NCBI GenBank assembly: GCA_903825285.1
Contig: CAIJZY010000017.1
Coordinates: forward strand, 62,001-126,000
DNA length: 64,000 bases
Reading direction: 5' to 3'
Origin: an uncultured Opitutia bacterium
Lineage (GTDB): Bacteria; Verrucomicrobiota; Verrucomicrobiia; Opitutales; Opitutaceae
Shown: in pieces, positions 7,996 to 28,729 of the stretch
How positions within the stretch are numbered: position 1 is the first letter of the stretch
How the letters are laid out: every line of letters begins with the position of its first letter
The notes under the pieces: model-generated
The model's database searches: none
What the model saw: the letters and a program-made list of their open reading frames with translations, nothing else
Told to the model about the DNA's origin: nothing
Translations under genes and position numbers: made by a program

Positions 7996-8148
7996 TAAAC
8001 CGCCAATATTCGGTAATCGTCGCTAATCTTGGTTTCGAACCACTGCTTCACGGACACCTTCGTGAGTCGGTCTAAGATGCCGGCTCAAGCCGGCGGAGGT
8101 ATGAAGCCCCCATCCGGATTAGCGAAGATTAGCGTAGATTAGTGGTTT
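7996..8148. repeat. Palindromic intergenic element with GCTAATC-type arms
   Basis: Most of the 185-bp opcA-tyrS gap. The right arm (8114-8148) is built of about 10-nt units GATTAGCGWA repeated three times; the left arm (7996-8032) contains imperfect inverted copies around CGCTAATCTT. Between them is a small perfect hairpin GCCGGC-TCAA-GCCGGC at 8079-8094. There is no ORF and no T-run, so it is not a simple terminator. Confidence 0.6.
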
Positions 8149-15204: not shown

Positions 15205-15325
15205 GAACGCCGGACGCCCAACGTCCCACGCCGAACTCCGAAGTGAGCCGGGCGCGGCGAGGGCGCCGGGCTCCAGGGGTGAGATCCTTCGATCTTCGGC
15301 GTTGGGCGTTGGACGTTCGGCGTTC
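15205..15325. repeat. Palindromic element with inverted heptad arms, upstream of trpB
   Basis: Two 31-nt inverted arms, 15205-15235 and 15295-15325, with only a few mismatches. Each arm consists of degenerate 7-nt units (GAACGCC/CAACGCC types) plus a trailing GAA. The 59-nt centre is GC-rich and has no ORF. The element sits between the phosphatase stop (15174) and the trpB ATG (15371), where it would lie in the trpB leader if transcription begins upstream. Confidence 0.75.
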
Positions 15326-15370
15326 GTCTGCCTTGCCACCGCCCGCGCGGTTGTCTCACATCCCCGTGTC

Positions 15371-16585: not shown

Positions 16586-17117
16586 CACGGGGCAAGGGCC
16601 AAGTGACAAGGTCGTCCGTTTCTGAGGAGAGAGGTATTGAACTACTGCAATCGACTGGTGTGCGCCTGTTGATGCTTGTCTAGCGCAGCGAGGACCTGGA
16701 AATCGGGGTATGGCTGAGAAGCCCCGTGACTTGGTAAGGCGGACCTTTCTATTCGCACAGAATACCCGGCAATTGGTAAATCGGCTGCCGCGGATGCTCT
16801 CCAACTATGAGGATTCCCGCCAACTGATCCGCTCCTCGGGTTCGGTCGCGGCAAATTATCTTGAGGCGCAGGAGGGGCTCAGCCGAAGAGATTTTTTCTA
16901 CCGCATCAAAATCTGCCGCAAGGAAGCACGGGAATCAGGGTTATGGCTGCGGATGATTAGTCTTGAGGCGGACGCCGGGCTTACTGCTGAACGAGATCAG
17001 CTATTTGCCGAATCCCAGGAGTTGAAACGAATTTTCTCGGCGATCGCTGCCAAGGACGACACCGAGCAGGGTGCGAAAGGCTGACTCTTGCCACTTGGCC
17101 CTTGTTACCTGTTACTT
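16581..17117. mobile_element. Candidate repeat element: S23 four-helix-bundle gene between inverted heptad arms
   Basis: Left arm 16581-16610 and right arm 17087-17117 are inverted copies whose 18-nt cores (CAAGGGCCAAGTGRCAAG; 16593-16610 and 17087-17104) differ at one base. Both arms decompose into degenerate 7-nt units. The interior carries one intact S23-type gene of lower GC content than trpB and yicC. The left arm covers the trpB stop codon and the right arm ends 5 nt before the yicC ATG. Mobility is inferred; no target duplication was identified by eye. Confidence 0.6.
16710..17084 (+). CDS. Four-helix-bundle protein (23S rRNA intervening-sequence/S23 family)
   Basis: 124-residue all-helical protein. 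Motifs match the S23/four-helix-bundle family: an N-terminal helix with LVRRTFLFAQNTRQLVNRLP, then SRQLIRSSGSVAANYLEAQE, DFFYRIKICRKEARESGLWL and a final amphipathic helix. Relatives occur inside intervening sequences of 23S rRNA genes (for example Leptospira and Coxiella), and the fold is shared with the Avd accessory protein of diversity-generating retroelements. Their function in isolation is unknown; basic surfaces suggest nucleic acid binding. Codon use is markedly less GC-rich than in neighbours, and the gene is bounded by inverted arms, which suggests transfer. No reverse transcriptase or rRNA gene is near. Confidence 0.85.
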   Translation: MAEKPRDLVRRTFLFAQNTRQLVNRLPRMLSNYEDSRQLIRSSGSVAANYLEAQEGLSRRDFFYRIKICRKEARESGLWLRMISLEADAGLTAERDQLFAESQELKRIFSAIAAKDDTEQGAKG

Positions 17118-19702: not shown

Positions 19703-22552
19703 TTAGGATTTCAGGGCGTCAACGCAACGGGGGCAGACTTCGCCGGAAGGGGAGGTTTCGAGTTGCGGCACCCAGCGCCAGCAGCGGGGACACCGGACGC
19801 GGCCCAGTTCGCCACAGGGGCGAACCGAAACCGTGAAGGCGGCCCCGGCGGACGGGGTAAGGGTGACATCGGACACGATAAAAAGTTCTGGGAGAAAGTC
19901 GCGGTGTTTTTCGAGCACGCGGGCGATTTCCTCGCCCGCGGGCAGGGTCAGCCCGATGGCGGCGTCGAGGGACTTACCCAGGCGCCCGGCGGCGCGGTGG
20001 GGCTCGATGGCCTCGTTCACCTGGGTGCGGACGCGGAGGAGCGCAGCCACCTCGGCCTCCAAGGCCGGATCGGTCCACTCGGCCGCCGCCACCGGCCAGT
20101 CCTGCAGGTGCACCGAGTCCTCCGAGTACTCCTTGCCCGTGCGGGCAAAGCTCCAGGCCTCGTCGGCGGTGAACGCCAGGATCGGGGCGAGCAGACGCAC
20201 GAGGGACTGGAAAATGAGGTGGATCGCGGTCTGCGAGGAGCGGCGCAGGGACGAATTCGTGCCGAGCGTGTACAGCCGGTCCTTCAGGATGTCATGGTAC
20301 GTCGCCGACAGCGTGACCGAGCAGAAGTGGTTGCACAGCTGGTAGACGCGGTGGAACTCGTAGGTCTCATAGGCCGCCGTGCATTCGCGGATGAGGTTGG
20401 CCGTCTGGTGCAGCGCCCAGCGGTCGAGCACGTCCATGCGCGCCACCGGCACGGCGTCGCGCGCGGCGTCGAAGTCGAACAGGTTCGAGATCTGGTACCG
20501 GAAGGTGTTGCGGATGAGCCGGTAGGTCTCCCCGACGTGCCCGAGGATCTCCTTCGAGATCGGGATGTCGTCGCGGAAGTCCTGGGACGAGATCCAGAGG
20601 CGGATGACGTCCGCGCCGTAGTCGGCGATGTAGGCGTCGCTGGTCTGGGGCTTCTCGTAGGAGCTGCTCTTGGAGATCTTGTTGCGCTCGTGGTCCACGA
20701 TGAAGCCGTGGGTGAGGACGGCCTTGTACGGAGCGGCGCCAAAGGCGATGACGCTGGTCCAGAGCGAGGACTGGAACCAGCCGCGGTGCTGGTCGCTGCC
20801 CTCGAGGTAGAGGTCGGCGGGCCAGTGCGTGCCGCCCTGGCCGCGGCGCAGCACGGCGGCGTGGGACGACCCGGAATCGAACCAGACATCGAGGGTGTCG
20901 CGGCCCGCGGTGAGCGCGGCCGCCGCCGGCCAGCCGGCGGGGAGCGTCACCCCGGCGAGCAGCTCCGCCGCGGTGCTGTCGTACCAGAAGTTGCTCCCGT
21001 GCTGGGCAAACTTGTCGGCGATGGCGCGGGCGACGCCGGCGTCGAGGTAGGCGTTCTTCGCGGCGTCGTAGAAGGCCGGGATCGGCACGCCCCAGGAGCG
21101 CTGGCGGCTGATGCACCAGTCGGGACGCGACTCGACGGCTCCGCGGATGCGGGCCTCGCCCCAGGCAGGCACCCAGCCATGGTTGGCCGCGATCCGGGCG
21201 ATCTCGGCGAGGGCGGTGGCGCGGGAGCCCTGCTTGTCCAATGACACGAACCACTGGTCCACGGCGCGGAAGATGATCGGGGTCTTGGACCGCCAGCAGT
21301 GCGGATAGCTGTGGGCGTACTTCGCCTTGGCGAGGAGCGCGCCGGCGGCGGCGAGCTTCTTCAGCACGCCGAGGTTGGCGGGCGAGGGGCGCTTGGCGGC
21401 GAGATCCTCGACCGACTCGAGCGTGGTGAGGCCGACGAGGTCGGCGGGCACGCGGCCGTCGTCGAGGTAGCGGCCGTCGTCGCCGACGGGGCAGTAGATC
21501 TCGAGGTGGTACTTGAGGCCGGTGAGATAGTCCTCCGCGCCGTGGCCCGGGGCGGTGTGCACGGCGCCGGTGCCGCTGTCGGTCGTGACATAGTCGGCCA
21601 GCACGACGGGCGCGGGGCGGTCGATGAAGGGGTGGCGCGGGGCGAGCTTCTCCAGCTCGGCGCCCTTGCGGCGGGCGGCGATGGCCGGCGCGGCCTCCAC
21701 CTTGGCGGCGGCGAGCACGGAGCCCAGCAGCGCCTCGGCCACGAGGATGCGCTCGGCACCGAGGTCGGCGACCACGTAGTCCACGTCGGGGTGCAGCGCG
21801 ATCGCGAGGTTGGCCGGGATCGTCCAGGGCGTGGTGGTCCAGATGACGACGCTGAGGGGCTTGTCCGCGGGCAGGCCGAACTTCGCGACCTCGGCGGCGG
21901 GCACGGCGAACTTCACCCAGATCGCGATCGAGGTGTGGTCCTTGTACTCGATCTCGGCCTCGGCCAGCGCGGTCTCGAAGGGGATGGACCAGTAGACGGG
22001 TTTCTTGGCGCGGTAGGTGAGGCCCTGCGCGATGAAGGCGGAGAAGGTGCGGACGATGTCGGCCTCGAAGGCGGGCGACTTCGTCTTGTACTGCTGGTCC
22101 CAGTCGGCGAGGACGCCGAGGCGCTTGAACTGGGCCGACTGGCGGGTGATCCAGCTCTCGGAAAACTCGTCGCAGCGGGCGCGCAGGGCGGCGGTGGTGA
22201 CGGTTTCCTTCCGCTCCTGGATCTCGCGGGAGACCTTCTGCTCGATGGGCAGGCCGTGGCAGTCCCAGCCGGGCACGTAGGGCGTGCGGAACCCGCGCAT
22301 GGACTTGTAGCGGTTGATGAGATCCTTGAGGGTCTTGTTCAGCGCGGTGCCGATGTGGACGTCGCCGTTGGTGAACGGGGGACCGTCATGGAGCACGAAC
22401 GCCGGCGCCCCGGCGCGGCGCTGCTGGATGGCCTGGTAGAGGCCGGTCTTTTCCCAGTGCGCGACGCGTCCCGGCTCCCGCTGGGCCAGCCCGGCCCGCA
22501 TGGGGAAGTCCGTCTTAGGGAGCTGCAGCGTGTCTTTGAGTTCGAGGGCCAT
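19703..22552 (-). CDS. ileS: Isoleucine--tRNA ligase
   Basis: Class I synthetase charging tRNA-Ile with editing of valine. The 949-residue protein has the HIGH motif in PPFTNGDVHIGTALN, the CP1 editing region (VIWTTTPWTIPANLAIALHPD, TGAVHTAPGHGAEDY), the KMSKS loop as NKISKSSSY and an anticodon-binding C-terminus that ends in a zinc finger (CPRCWRW ... CPRC). This is the bacterial IleS1 architecture. The start is the ATG at 22552 (MALELKDTLQLPKTDFPMRAGL). No T-box is visible in the 180-bp upstream gap, which instead holds a REPIN. lspA two genes downstream is a classic neighbour of ileS. Confidence 0.97.
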   Translation of the reverse strand: MALELKDTLQLPKTDFPMRAGLAQREPGRVAHWEKTGLYQAIQQRRAGAPAFVLHDGPPFTNGDVHIGTALNKTLKDLINRYKSMRGFRTPYVPGWDCHGLPIEQKVSREIQERKETVTTAALRARCDEFSESWITRQSAQFKRLGVLADWDQQYKTKSPAFEADIVRTFSAFIAQGLTYRAKKPVYWSIPFETALAEAEIEYKDHTSIAIWVKFAVPAAEVAKFGLPADKPLSVVIWTTTPWTIPANLAIALHPDVDYVVADLGAERILVAEALLGSVLAAAKVEAAPAIAARRKGAELEKLAPRHPFIDRPAPVVLADYVTTDSGTGAVHTAPGHGAEDYLTGLKYHLEIYCPVGDDGRYLDDGRVPADLVGLTTLESVEDLAAKRPSPANLGVLKKLAAAGALLAKAKYAHSYPHCWRSKTPIIFRAVDQWFVSLDKQGSRATALAEIARIAANHGWVPAWGEARIRGAVESRPDWCISRQRSWGVPIPAFYDAAKNAYLDAGVARAIADKFAQHGSNFWYDSTAAELLAGVTLPAGWPAAAALTAGRDTLDVWFDSGSSHAAVLRRGQGGTHWPADLYLEGSDQHRGWFQSSLWTSVIAFGAAPYKAVLTHGFIVDHERNKISKSSSYEKPQTSDAYIADYGADVIRLWISSQDFRDDIPISKEILGHVGETYRLIRNTFRYQISNLFDFDAARDAVPVARMDVLDRWALHQTANLIRECTAAYETYEFHRVYQLCNHFCSVTLSATYHDILKDRLYTLGTNSSLRRSSQTAIHLIFQSLVRLLAPILAFTADEAWSFARTGKEYSEDSVHLQDWPVAAAEWTDPALEAEVAALLRVRTQVNEAIEPHRAAGRLGKSLDAAIGLTLPAGEEIARVLEKHRDFLPELFIVSDVTLTPSAGAAFTVSVRPCGELGRVRCPRCWRWVPQLETSPSGEVCPRCVDALKS

Positions 22553-22642
22553 GCCGAAATAAAACGCGCGAGGCTAGGCCGCACGCAGGGTGAGTCAAGG
22601 GGAGACGCCACCGCGCGGGTTGGTCTTACCCGTTGGATCCAC

Positions 22643-22712
22643 TGTGGGAGCGAGCTTGCTCGCGACCTGGCGGTGCGGCGGCCCGAAAGTCGCGAGCAAG
22701 CTCGCTCCCACA
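22643..22712. repeat. REPIN: second copy with identical arms
   Basis: Arms 22643-22666 and 22689-22712 are perfect inverted copies, 24 nt each, identical in sequence to those at 18081-18142. The loop is 22 nt and unrelated to the first copy's loop. It lies between ileS (upstream side) and the hemE stop. Confidence 0.9.
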
Positions 22713-22732
22713 CCGCTCCCACCCAGCGCCGC

Positions 22733-23761
<1,029 letters not shown>

Positions 23762-23766
23762 GAGGG

Positions 23767-23939
23767 GATTTACGATTTACGACTTACGATTTTCGATGTC
23801 AGCCGTGGAGTCTGCAGCGACTGGGGCTGGATTGGCGAGGCGGGGTTTCTGACGGAGATGATACCCTCACGTTCCGGGACACTCCGGAGTCTACCGGTGG
23901 ACCGGAAAATCGTAAAACGTACATCGTACATCGTAAATC
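23767..23939. repeat. Palindromic element with inverted heptad arms filling the hemE-hemF gap
   Basis: Left arm 23767-23794 and right arm 23905-23939 are inverted copies built of 7-nt units of the TTTACGA type, three units in the left arm and four in the right, both ending GATTTTC when read inward. The 110-nt centre has no ORF. The element takes up almost the entire 181-bp gap and is more AT-rich than the genes around it. Confidence 0.8.
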
Positions 23940-23942
23940 GCC

Positions 23943-25063
<1,121 letters not shown>

Positions 25064-27025: not shown

Positions 27026-28729
27026 TCAGCTCACCTGCTCGAGCGGCAGGTCGTGCAGCTTCAGCTCGGGGTTCTTCTCGATGAAATAGCGCATCGTCCA
27101 GTCGTTCGGGAACAGCGCGACCGGCTGGTCGAGCTTGTCGGTGCCGAAGCTGACGCCCGTGGCGACGATCAGGCGGCCGAGGTCCGGCAGCGCGGTGCCC
27201 GGCGTGGCCGGCGCGAGCCATTTCATGATCGTCCAGTTGCACGGGTCGAGCCGGGAGGCGGCGCCGTACTCGCTCTCCAGGCGGAACTGCACGACCTCGA
27301 ACTGCAGCGCGCCGACCGCGGCAAGCAGCGTGGCGGTGGTCATGCCCGCGCGGAGGTTGATCGACTGCACGACGCCCTCCTGCAGCAGCTGGTCGAGGCC
27401 GGCGCGGAACTTTTTGGCGTCGGCCGGGCTGGGGTTGGCGATGAAGGTGAACACCTCGGGCGGGAACCGCGGGATCTCGTCGTAGAGAATGCCCTTGTCC
27501 GACGTGAGCGTGTCGCCGATGCCGAACTCACCGTGGCCGACCAGCCCGATGACATCACCCGGCCAGGCCTCATCGACCGTCTCGCGCTCCTGGCCGAAGA
27601 GCTTGTGGGACGAGGAGAGCCGGACGTTTTTCCCGGACTGCTGGTGCGTGACCATCATGTCGCGCTCGAACTTGCCGGAGCAGACGCGCAGGAAGGCGAT
27701 GCGGTCGCGGTGCTTCGGGTCCATGTTGGCCTGGATCTTGAAGACGAAGCCGCTGAAGCGGTCGTGCGTCACGGGCACGATGGGCGAGGGGTCAAGGGGC
27801 AAGGCTGAAGCGCCAGGTGAGTCCGTGGCTGCGCCGCTGTTTTCCTGGACCTTGGCCCTTGGCCCTTGGTCCTTGCGCGGCGCGGCATTGCGGCGCGGCG
27901 CGGGCGGAACCGAGTCCTTGAGAAACCCGTCGAGCAGGAGCTGGATGCCGAAATTGTTCACTGCGCTGCCGAAATAGACGGGCGTCTGCTGACCCGCCTG
28001 GACGGCGGCGAGGTCGAAGGGATGGCCGGCGCCGTCGAGCATCTCGAGCTGCTCGGTGACCTGCCCGTAGGTGTAGTCGTCGAGCTTGGCGCGCACGGCG
28101 GGGTCGTCGAGCGAGGTGACATTGACGGGGGCCTGGTAGGCGCCGCCTGGGACGCGCTCGAAGAGGTGGACCTGGCGGGAGCGGCGGTCGAACACGCCGC
28201 GGAACGACGGGCCGCTGCCGAGGGGCCAGATGACCGGCGACGACTGGAGGCCGAGGACCTGCTCAAGCTCGTCGAGCAGCTCCACGGCGTTCCGCGTGGG
28301 CCGGTCGCACTTGTTCATGAACGTGAAGATCGGCACGCCGCGGCGCCGGCAGACCTCGAAGAGCTTGCGGGTCTGCGCCTCGACACCCTTGGCGGCGTCG
28401 ATCACCATCAGCGCCGCGTCCACGGCGGTGAGGACGCGGTAGGTGTCCTCTGAAAAGTCCTTGTGGCCCGGGGTGTCCAGCAGGTTGACCGCGTAGCCGC
28501 CGTAATCGAACTGGAGGACGGTCGAGCTGATGGAAATGCCGCGCTGTTTTTCTAGCTCCATCCAGTCCGAGGCCGTGGCGCGCTGGTTCTTGCGGGCGGT
28601 GACGGCGCCGGCGAGGTGGATGGCGTTGCCGTAGAGGAGGAACTTCTCGGTCAGCGTCGTCTTGCCCGCATCGGGATGCGAGATGATCGCGAAGGTGCGA
28701 CGGCGGGCGATTTCAGCGGCGGGTGACAT
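27026..28729 (-). CDS. prfC: Peptide chain release factor 3
   Basis: Translational GTPase that recycles RF1/RF2 from the ribosome. G motifs are intact: SHPDAGKTTLTEK (G1), ISISSTVLQF (G2), LLDTPGHKDFSEDT (G3), NKCDRPT (G4). Domain II begins FSGFVFKIQANMDPKHRDRIAFLRV and the C-terminus has VVQFRLESEYGA, as in RF3. Residues about 285-316 (KDQGPRAKVQENSGAATDSP and onwards) are an extra Pro/Ala/Ser segment between the GTPase domain and domain II, encoded by an inverted repeat at 27788-27875. The total of 567 residues is about 38 longer than E. coli RF3 (529), in line with an in-frame insertion in a surface linker. The protein should still be functional. Confidence 0.95.
   Translation of the reverse strand: MSPAAEIARRRTFAIISHPDAGKTTLTEKFLLYGNAIHLAGAVTARKNQRATASDWMELEKQRGISISSTVLQFDYGGYAVNLLDTPGHKDFSEDTYRVLTAVDAALMVIDAAKGVEAQTRKLFEVCRRRGVPIFTFMNKCDRPTRNAVELLDELEQVLGLQSSPVIWPLGSGPSFRGVFDRRSRQVHLFERVPGGAYQAPVNVTSLDDPAVRAKLDDYTYGQVTEQLEMLDGAGHPFDLAAVQAGQQTPVYFGSAVNNFGIQLLLDGFLKDSVPPAPRRNAAPRKDQGPRAKVQENSGAATDSPGASALPLDPSPIVPVTHDRFSGFVFKIQANMDPKHRDRIAFLRVCSGKFERDMMVTHQQSGKNVRLSSSHKLFGQERETVDEAWPGDVIGLVGHGEFGIGDTLTSDKGILYDEIPRFPPEVFTFIANPSPADAKKFRAGLDQLLQEGVVQSINLRAGMTTATLLAAVGALQFEVVQFRLESEYGAASRLDPCNWTIMKWLAPATPGTALPDLGRLIVATGVSFGTDKLDQPVALFPNDWTMRYFIEKNPELKLHDLPLEQVS
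27788..27875. repeat. Heptad-armed palindrome inside the prfC coding region
   Basis: Arm 27788-27816 has 7-nt units such as GGGTCAA and GGGGCAA; arm 27848-27875 has CTTGGCC/CTTGGTC units in inverted orientation. The unit sequence (CAAGGGC on the minus strand) matches the arms of the S23 element at 16581-17117. It keeps the prfC frame open. Confidence 0.7.

Follow-up and report, generated by a model that had tools for sequence, protein, structure and literature searches.

What is the palindrome of 7-nt repeats that takes up nearly all of the gap between hemF and hemE in an uncultured Opitutia bacterium, and how did it come to lie there? The window, by which we mean the whole 64,000-nt stretch of one contig that was analysed, had been the subject of an earlier note made from the sequence alone, which described the feature as an ORF-less palindrome resembling a non-autonomous form. 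Comparing it with the rest of the source genome and with other genomes, we consider it probable that the palindrome is one of the gene-less (non-autonomous) members of a family of small insertion elements. Each element has two inverted arrays made from one 7-nt unit; the full form carries an S23 gene, whose protein would read the heptads.

The gap measures 181 nt, nearly all of it inverted GATTTAC arrays around a 109-nt core (Table 1), and the element extends from 23767 to 23940 with four GATTTAC-type units in one array and five in the other. Read on the plus strand from 23767, the left arm is GATTTAC GATTTAC GACTTAC GATTTTC; the right arm, read as its reverse complement from 23939, is GATTTAC GATGTAC GATGTAC GTTTTAC GATTTTC. 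A gap-filling palindrome with matching ends and arms one heptad apart is recovered by direct reading and by TRF, and none of 2,000 dinucleotide shuffles of the 181-nt gap reaches its inverted-array score. The three and four heptads of the earlier count hold when the inner GATTTTC is set aside and become four and five when it is included, and the outer end does lie close to the hemE start, 5 nt from the ATG. The term ‘ORF-less’ needs qualification: no gene lies inside the element, but a long plus-strand open frame (21299–24055, 918 codons) crosses the gap. Arms of 38 nt (23760–23797 and 23909–23946) are 84% complementary, and the minus-strand RNA of the gap, corresponding to the transcript, is predicted to fold into one long stem (−67.5 kcal/mol, z −5.1, 0/200 shuffles), the inverted ends being stem-forming by both complementarity and fold. 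An Rfam search of window positions 8000–34000 at E up to 1 returned three sub-threshold matches, none at the element. Upstream of hemF, at 24966–25040, GTCAGAG heptads form an array on one side only, after which come a GGCGTTT-like stretch, also of period 7, and a perfect palindrome around TGCGGCCGCTTGCGGCCGCA.

Table 1. Element, neighbouring genes and other heptad features, in window coordinates.
Feature	Position	Strand	Evidence and remarks
Left arm, four GATTTAC-type heptads	23767..23797	+	TRF period 7; register by direct reading
Core, 109 nt, without gene	23798..23906		Unalignable to the other nine TTTACGA cores compared
Right arm, five GATTTAC-type heptads, inverted	23907..23940	-	TRF period 7; register by direct reading
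hemE, downstream gene	22733..23761	-	PF01208 (URO-D) 1.1e-118; start codon 5 nt off element
hemF, upstream gene	23943..24920	-	PF01218 (Coprogen_oxidas) 1.8e-127; stop codon 3 nt off element; start codon as listed is GTG, true start may be further in
Full S23 element, inverted heptad arms near CAAGTGA	16586..17115	+	Inverted lag-7 pair
S23/IVP gene of the 16586–17115 element, 124 aa	16710..17084	+	PF05635 2.2e-09; AlphaFold pLDDT 92
Gene-less inverted heptad pair, unit near CGAACGC	15207..15326		Inverted lag-7 scan
Gene-less inverted heptad pair, unit near CAAGGGC	27778..27875		Inverted lag-7 scan

The same unit recurs elsewhere in the genome. The exact sequence TTTACGATTTACGA occurs 12 times in the 3.74-Mb assembly (reversed control, 0), and the matches group by position into nine elements of a TTTACGA/GATTTAC family, that is, eight besides the one at hemF–hemE. 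A full copy on contig 29 (positions 2303–2735, 433 nt), located between succinate dehydrogenase-type genes, has a PF05635 gene between its arms, PF05635 being the 23S_rRNA_IVP, or S23, family. Thus the TTTACGA unit flanks an S23 gene in the source genome (L016/L005), S23 is the sole gene seen between TTTACGA arms, and its ORF, present in this full form, is absent from the hemF–hemE copy, so that the suggested resemblance to a non-autonomous form now has a gene-bearing counterpart in the same genome. Ten TTTACGA cores compared have no common interior, with 12–19 nt shared by four only; because the cores are not conserved, the gene-less elements are not simple deletion derivatives, and a classical MITE, which would require an interior common to the copies, was rejected. 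The core of one TTTACGA element (L008, 1529–1700 on contig 31) contains a REP-type palindrome (TCATCCTGAGCGAATGCGAAGGATGA), and elements therefore nest.

Five PF05635 genes are encoded in the genome, with units near GTTTAAG, GTAGCGG, GTCAGAG, GATTTAC and CAAGTGA. The unit at hemF–hemE is indeed unrelated to that of the S23 element in the window, as had been observed, but this is no difference in kind, as five S23 genes have five different units and one of these is TTTACGA. Four of the five have lag-7 scores of at least 7 on both flanks and clear inverted heptad arms; the fifth (L013) has weak arms (9.2 and 5.6) and an inverted score of 12 vs 11 in its far control. A census of inverted pairs over 862 kb of the genome (the window plus 40 stretches) gave 33 lag-7 pairs in 2-kb blocks vs 0 or 1 per dinucleotide shuffle in ten shuffles, bearing out the earlier expectation that period-7 inverted arms are commoner than in shuffled sequence. 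Unblocked, the same 862 kb yielded 36 pairs at lag 7, 0–4 at lags 4, 5, 8, 10, 11, 13, 16 and 17, 17 at lag 14 (a harmonic) and 18 at lag 9; some of the lag-9 pairs may reflect triplet periodicity and some a second class of elements with PF13366 genes. Sorted by best-fitting unit, nine pairs belong to GATTTAC, five to GTAGCGG and four to CAAGTGA (with fits of just 0.61–0.78), each of these groups including one pair with S23; six belong to GTTGAAA, seven to CGAACGC (L307 fitting poorly), two to CGCAGTT, two to GTTTAAG (one a poor fit) and one to GTCAGAG, the S23 copy with GTCAGAG passing a looser scan only. By these counts each of the five S23 units therefore has at least one gene-less partner within the 862 kb. 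S23 partners of GTTGAAA (L033, L038 and L040) and of CGCAGTT (L032) come from other species of the genus, and no S23 partner of the CGAACGC family was seen among the loci compared.

PF13366 (PDDEXK_3, GxxExxY) genes are also found between inverted arrays, mostly of period 8–12 with 9 the commonest, of the type ACCACAGAGG.CACAGAGG. Inverted scores reach at least 15 at 23 of 30 such loci and 0 of 30 controls (L235–L238 from the source genome and L244–L272 from the phylum, three having been dropped at a contig edge). In the window, a solo array of period 10, GATTAGCGAA, at 8117–8142 matches the unit of L237.

Direct evidence of insertion comes from a sister element of the one in the window, in the gap between rpmC and rpsQ (PF00831 and PF00366). 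The source genome reads TGA-ACCC-element-ATCGCC-ATG, the element being of the TTTACGA type, and two relatives (G005 and G008) read TGA-GCGCGCGCCTAACCCGCACCC-ATCGCC-ATG with no element; the gap is short in G001 and G006 too (among the 12 genomes of the genus, rpsQ was matched in seven and the gap was read in five of these). Given this empty site in sister species, the TTTACGA element there is an insertion. No target duplication is visible at the junctions of this one site when set against the empty one, and 11–17 nt of spacer were lost. In the family (58 genomes with a match among 61 searched), heptad elements were recognized by eye in the rpmC–rpsQ gap at five of 30 loci, with five different units. 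Element ends in the 862 kb favour gene boundaries: with open frames of at least 80 codons counted and L307 left out, a start or stop codon is no more than 12 nt away for 38 of 70 ends (random mean 17.8, maximum 27), and ATG starts account for 18 (random 4.2, maximum 9). Of 31 gene-less pairs, a number that omits L307 and four pairs with gaps above 300 nt, 15 fall inside some 150-codon open frame, against 29.8 by chance (minimum 25). From these open-frame and codon counts, the bias to gaps is clear yet not absolute.

How stable is the hemF–hemE site itself? All 12 genomes of the genus, the source genome included, yielded hemE, with hemF at most 1.5 kb away in nine, and all nine hemF–hemE gaps read look like inverted arrays. 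Heptad units occupy six of these gaps (G000, G002, G003, G004, G008 and G011), both arms scoring above 7 in G000, G002 and G008 only and one arm in G003, G004 and G011. The gap of G001 has period 9 (scores 10.2 and 6.0), and those of G006 and G007 a weak period 10 (6.4/5.2 and 6.8/3). These three (L053, L050 and L052) hold PF13366-type arrays of period 9 or 10 and not heptads, and two types of element therefore use the same gap. The unequal arms in the window had been ascribed to slippage or unit-wise recombination within arms. Unit-wise change is upheld by a sister pair at this gap, the left arm being one unit longer in G008 (L049) than in G011 (L047), but slippage in one arm cannot explain arms that share a unit unlike that of the orthologous element, because both arms of an element change together: the pheS–pheT S23 element has GTAGCGR in two species and a GTAGCTR-like unit in a third, both arms alike, and at a second fixed S23 site the unit is GGAAGAT in one species vs CGGAGTT in another. 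The same pattern could also result if whole elements had been replaced time and again at a hot spot.

The association of S23 genes with heptad arms extends well beyond the source genome. We scored lags 4–12 in the 180-nt flanks on either side of S23 genes and used stretches lying 700 nt farther outward as controls. Across the genus and phylum set (L013–L044 and L075–L104; L036 excluded at a contig edge), 37 of 61 loci have lag-7 arrays on both flanks (control, 0 of 57), with every other lag reaching at most 2 of 61 at the same threshold; lag 7 appears on at least one flank at 52 of 61 (control, 6 of 57), and inverted arms score at least 15 at 38 of 61 (control, 2 of 57). A wide set, the best 80 of at least 592 S23 matches, drawn from Clostridia, Bacteroidota, Planctomycetota, Acidobacteriota, Alpha- and Gammaproteobacteria, Chloroflexota, CPR, a Methanophagales archaeon and others, has lag-7 arrays on both flanks at 57 of 80 loci and inverted arms at 65 of 80 (control, 0 of 72 for each), with lag 8 on both flanks at 8 of 80. 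Lag-7 arrays on both flanks are absent at 24 of the 61 genus and phylum loci and at 23 of these best 80 of at least 592. At L147, L183, L189, L195 and L200 the arms resemble 8-nt rather than 7-nt units. At L082, L129, L148, L159, L161 and L104 the heptad arrays are very long on one side or on both (lag-7 scores 43–114), vs the usual 4–5 units. In the phylum sample 181 of 240 genomes have PF05635, and none of 14 control genomes does. On plasmids, which come mostly from Nostoc and its relatives, seven of ten S23 loci fetched from 34 records have lag-7 arrays on both sides. In two of the seven, the neighbours of the gene are cas6 and cas4 or the two ribonucleotide reductase genes; a plasmid S23 locus between cas10 and cmr3 has no lag-7 array.

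Gene and arms also vary together. Among 126 loci with arms, unit distance declines with S23 protein identity (Mantel r −0.21, 0/2,000 permutations; −0.19 once 53 pairs with similar flanking DNA are removed), which, at the level of sequence comparison, shows joint inheritance of gene and arms and would not on its own establish recognition. Arms belonging to a single element lie closer to each other (mean distance 0.23) than arms of different elements do (0.50; 101 loci). Median arm length is 31.5 nt, or about 4.5 units, and at 96 two-armed loci the G-rich strand points inward (left arm 83 to 10, right arm 87 to 7, ties omitted). The prediction that a unit recurs only where S23 arms use it held in seven genomes chosen by hand: a 14-mer of GTAGGCA gave 84 matches in a Mesorhizobium MAG and 12 in Bosea sp. 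OK403, both of which have S23 genes with GTAGGCA arms, and none in the five genomes with other arms, all reversed controls being 0. The 84 matches fall at 21 places, with both orientations close together at seven, and the 12 at three places in a single orientation. For the gene itself, dN was below dS in 12 of 12 S23 pairs tried (dS saturated in three), and the S23/IVP protein of the full form is thereby shown to be under purifying selection.

To our knowledge, no function or catalytic activity has been assigned to S23/IVP proteins, although crystal structures date from 2006–2007. The AlphaFold model of the S23 protein in the window matches 2rld (Z 16.1) and 2gsc (Z 15.2; protein XCC0516) best; each entry has five chains, and we take both to be pentamers, as Avd is. 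Taking these structures with the arms, we propose that the S23 protein recognizes the heptads, perhaps as a homopentamer on about 4–5 heptads of one strand; a five-membered ring that reads about five heptads would match the length of the arms. The targets of such a protein would be the element that encodes it and, in trans, gene-less copies. Once transcribed, the arms would pair into a hairpin, which RNase III may cut by analogy with the related intervening sequences of 23S rRNA, and units could be gained, lost and homogenized by slippage together with exchange between the two arms. The co-variation of gene and arms also follows from plain co-inheritance. More tentatively, and as an outcome we think less likely to be true than false, S23/IVP could be the sequence-reading partner of heptameric repeats in bacteria and archaea at large, each oligomer reading its own 7-nt word, about five per ring, and spreading gene-bearing and gene-less hairpins into gene gaps without transposase or reverse transcriptase, with a parallel PF13366 class using words of 8–12 nt. 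Because one of the five S23 genes has weak arms, our confidence in both the main and this boldest reading is held down.

Other origins must be weighed against the probable insertion family. Arrays might arise in place by slippage and inverted duplication and be kept as regulatory hairpins (terminator, attenuator or RNase III site) or translation leaders, S23 genes merely landing there. The position of element ends (38 of 70 no more than 12 nt from a start or stop codon, random mean 17.8), the strong hairpin predicted at hemF–hemE, an array of some kind in all nine of the hemF–hemE gaps read and the lack of conservation among cores would all agree with this; we nonetheless regard it as unlikely, since the TTTACGA unit occurs at nine unrelated sites of one genome, the rpmC–rpsQ copy is missing in sister species, and S23 arms recur in many phyla with a unit that tracks the gene.

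Two further explanations invoke other enzymes. One is that S23, as an Avd relative, assists a reverse transcriptase in writing the element RNA into new sites. In its favour are the resemblance of PF05635 to Avd that is described in the literature (PMC10053308) and the alignment of the window S23 model with Avd (4dwl, Z 11.6) and DGR ribonucleoprotein chains (Z about 12), values that unrelated helical bundles equal; against it, none of the 12 genomes of the genus has an RVT_1 match, with three positives among the 14 control genomes, and we regard it as very improbable. Mobility through a resident RVT_1 enzyme was rejected for the genus on that result, although an enzyme since lost, or one outside RVT_1, could have acted. 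Hardest of all to credit is a REP/RAYT-like system in which the palindromes owe their spread to a Y1 tyrosine transposase (PF01797) and S23 travels as cargo: Y1_Tnp is present in nine of the 12 genomes of the genus, with three matches in the source genome, but three S23-bearing genomes (G002, G005 and G010) have no match, G002 carrying 11 S23 genes, and the arms are heptad arrays and not single palindromes.

The insertion family that we favour shares features with several known systems. In REP/RAYT systems, short palindromic copies outnumber gene-bearing ones and repeat and protein type go together; both hold here for gene-less copies and for unit and protein, but the protein is a four-helix bundle without known catalysis and the repeats are heptad arrays. 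MITEs are gene-less and have inverted ends in common with a gene-bearing copy, as is the case here, but no transposase was seen between the TTTACGA arms, and the present elements show no target duplication at the one empty site and no common interior. With the DGR accessory protein Avd, S23 shares a fold family, although no RVT_1 reverse transcriptase is present in the 12 genomes of the genus.

The class to which the hemF–hemE hairpin belongs is widespread and little noticed, occupies core operons (hemF–hemE, pheS–pheT, rpmC–rpsQ and the succinate dehydrogenase-type pair) and may explain many 7-letter repeats of bacteria. If the boldest reading were true, the S23 and PF13366 classes would account for most short-period intergenic repeats described, including cyanobacterial STRRs, whose heptads are reportedly located in RNase P RNA genes, and those of Xanthomonas (GGGAATC), Beggiatoa (TAACTGA) and Geobacter (GGGACCG). 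The position of some element ends suggests that certain ‘regulatory’ hairpins beside start codons are the ends of such elements. Heptameric repeats have been reported from many bacteria with no agreed origin, and our data tie them to S23/IVP. Described examples are GGGAATC in Xanthomonas and GGGGAYT in Nostoc (PMC4692102), TAACTGA in Beggiatoaceae (PMC4679880), of whose horizontal transmission it is said that ‘no mechanism is evident’, and GGGACCG and MTYCTGA in Geobacter (PMC2700814). Like the tandem 7-nt, mainly intergenic repeats studied here, these simple sequence repeats are described as 7-nt units, typically in 2–6 copies, intergenic and often beside start codons, and inverted pairs number 70 cases in Xcc and 75 in Xac (PMC4692102, PMC4679880, PMC2700814). 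They differ in that ‘S23’ and ‘four helix’ are absent from the main texts of these three articles, and within the open-licence PMC literature we found no report linking intergenic heptad arrays to S23/IVP genes.

The closest known relative is the intervening sequence of 23S rRNA. The Coxiella example is described as having an S23p ORF, inverted ends forming a stem and a length near 430 nt, with two or three GACAGAT heptads before the ORF depending on the strain; its RNA is cut by RNase III in vitro and its S23p is said to be probably not expressed (PMC4990558). IVP ORFs are also described in 16S insertions of CPR (PMC11270868). The full element on contig 29 likewise has an S23/IVP ORF between inverted ends, at 433 nt vs near 430 nt, but the elements studied here, that at hemF–hemE among them, lie in gaps between protein genes and not inside a 23S rRNA gene, mostly without a gene, many per genome and with several units. 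What is new is thus a set of intergenic relatives of intervening sequences with gene-less offspring, which would come close to a new class if action in trans were shown, and the comparison suggests that the 23S rRNA intervening sequences are one branch of this broad class of intergenic elements.
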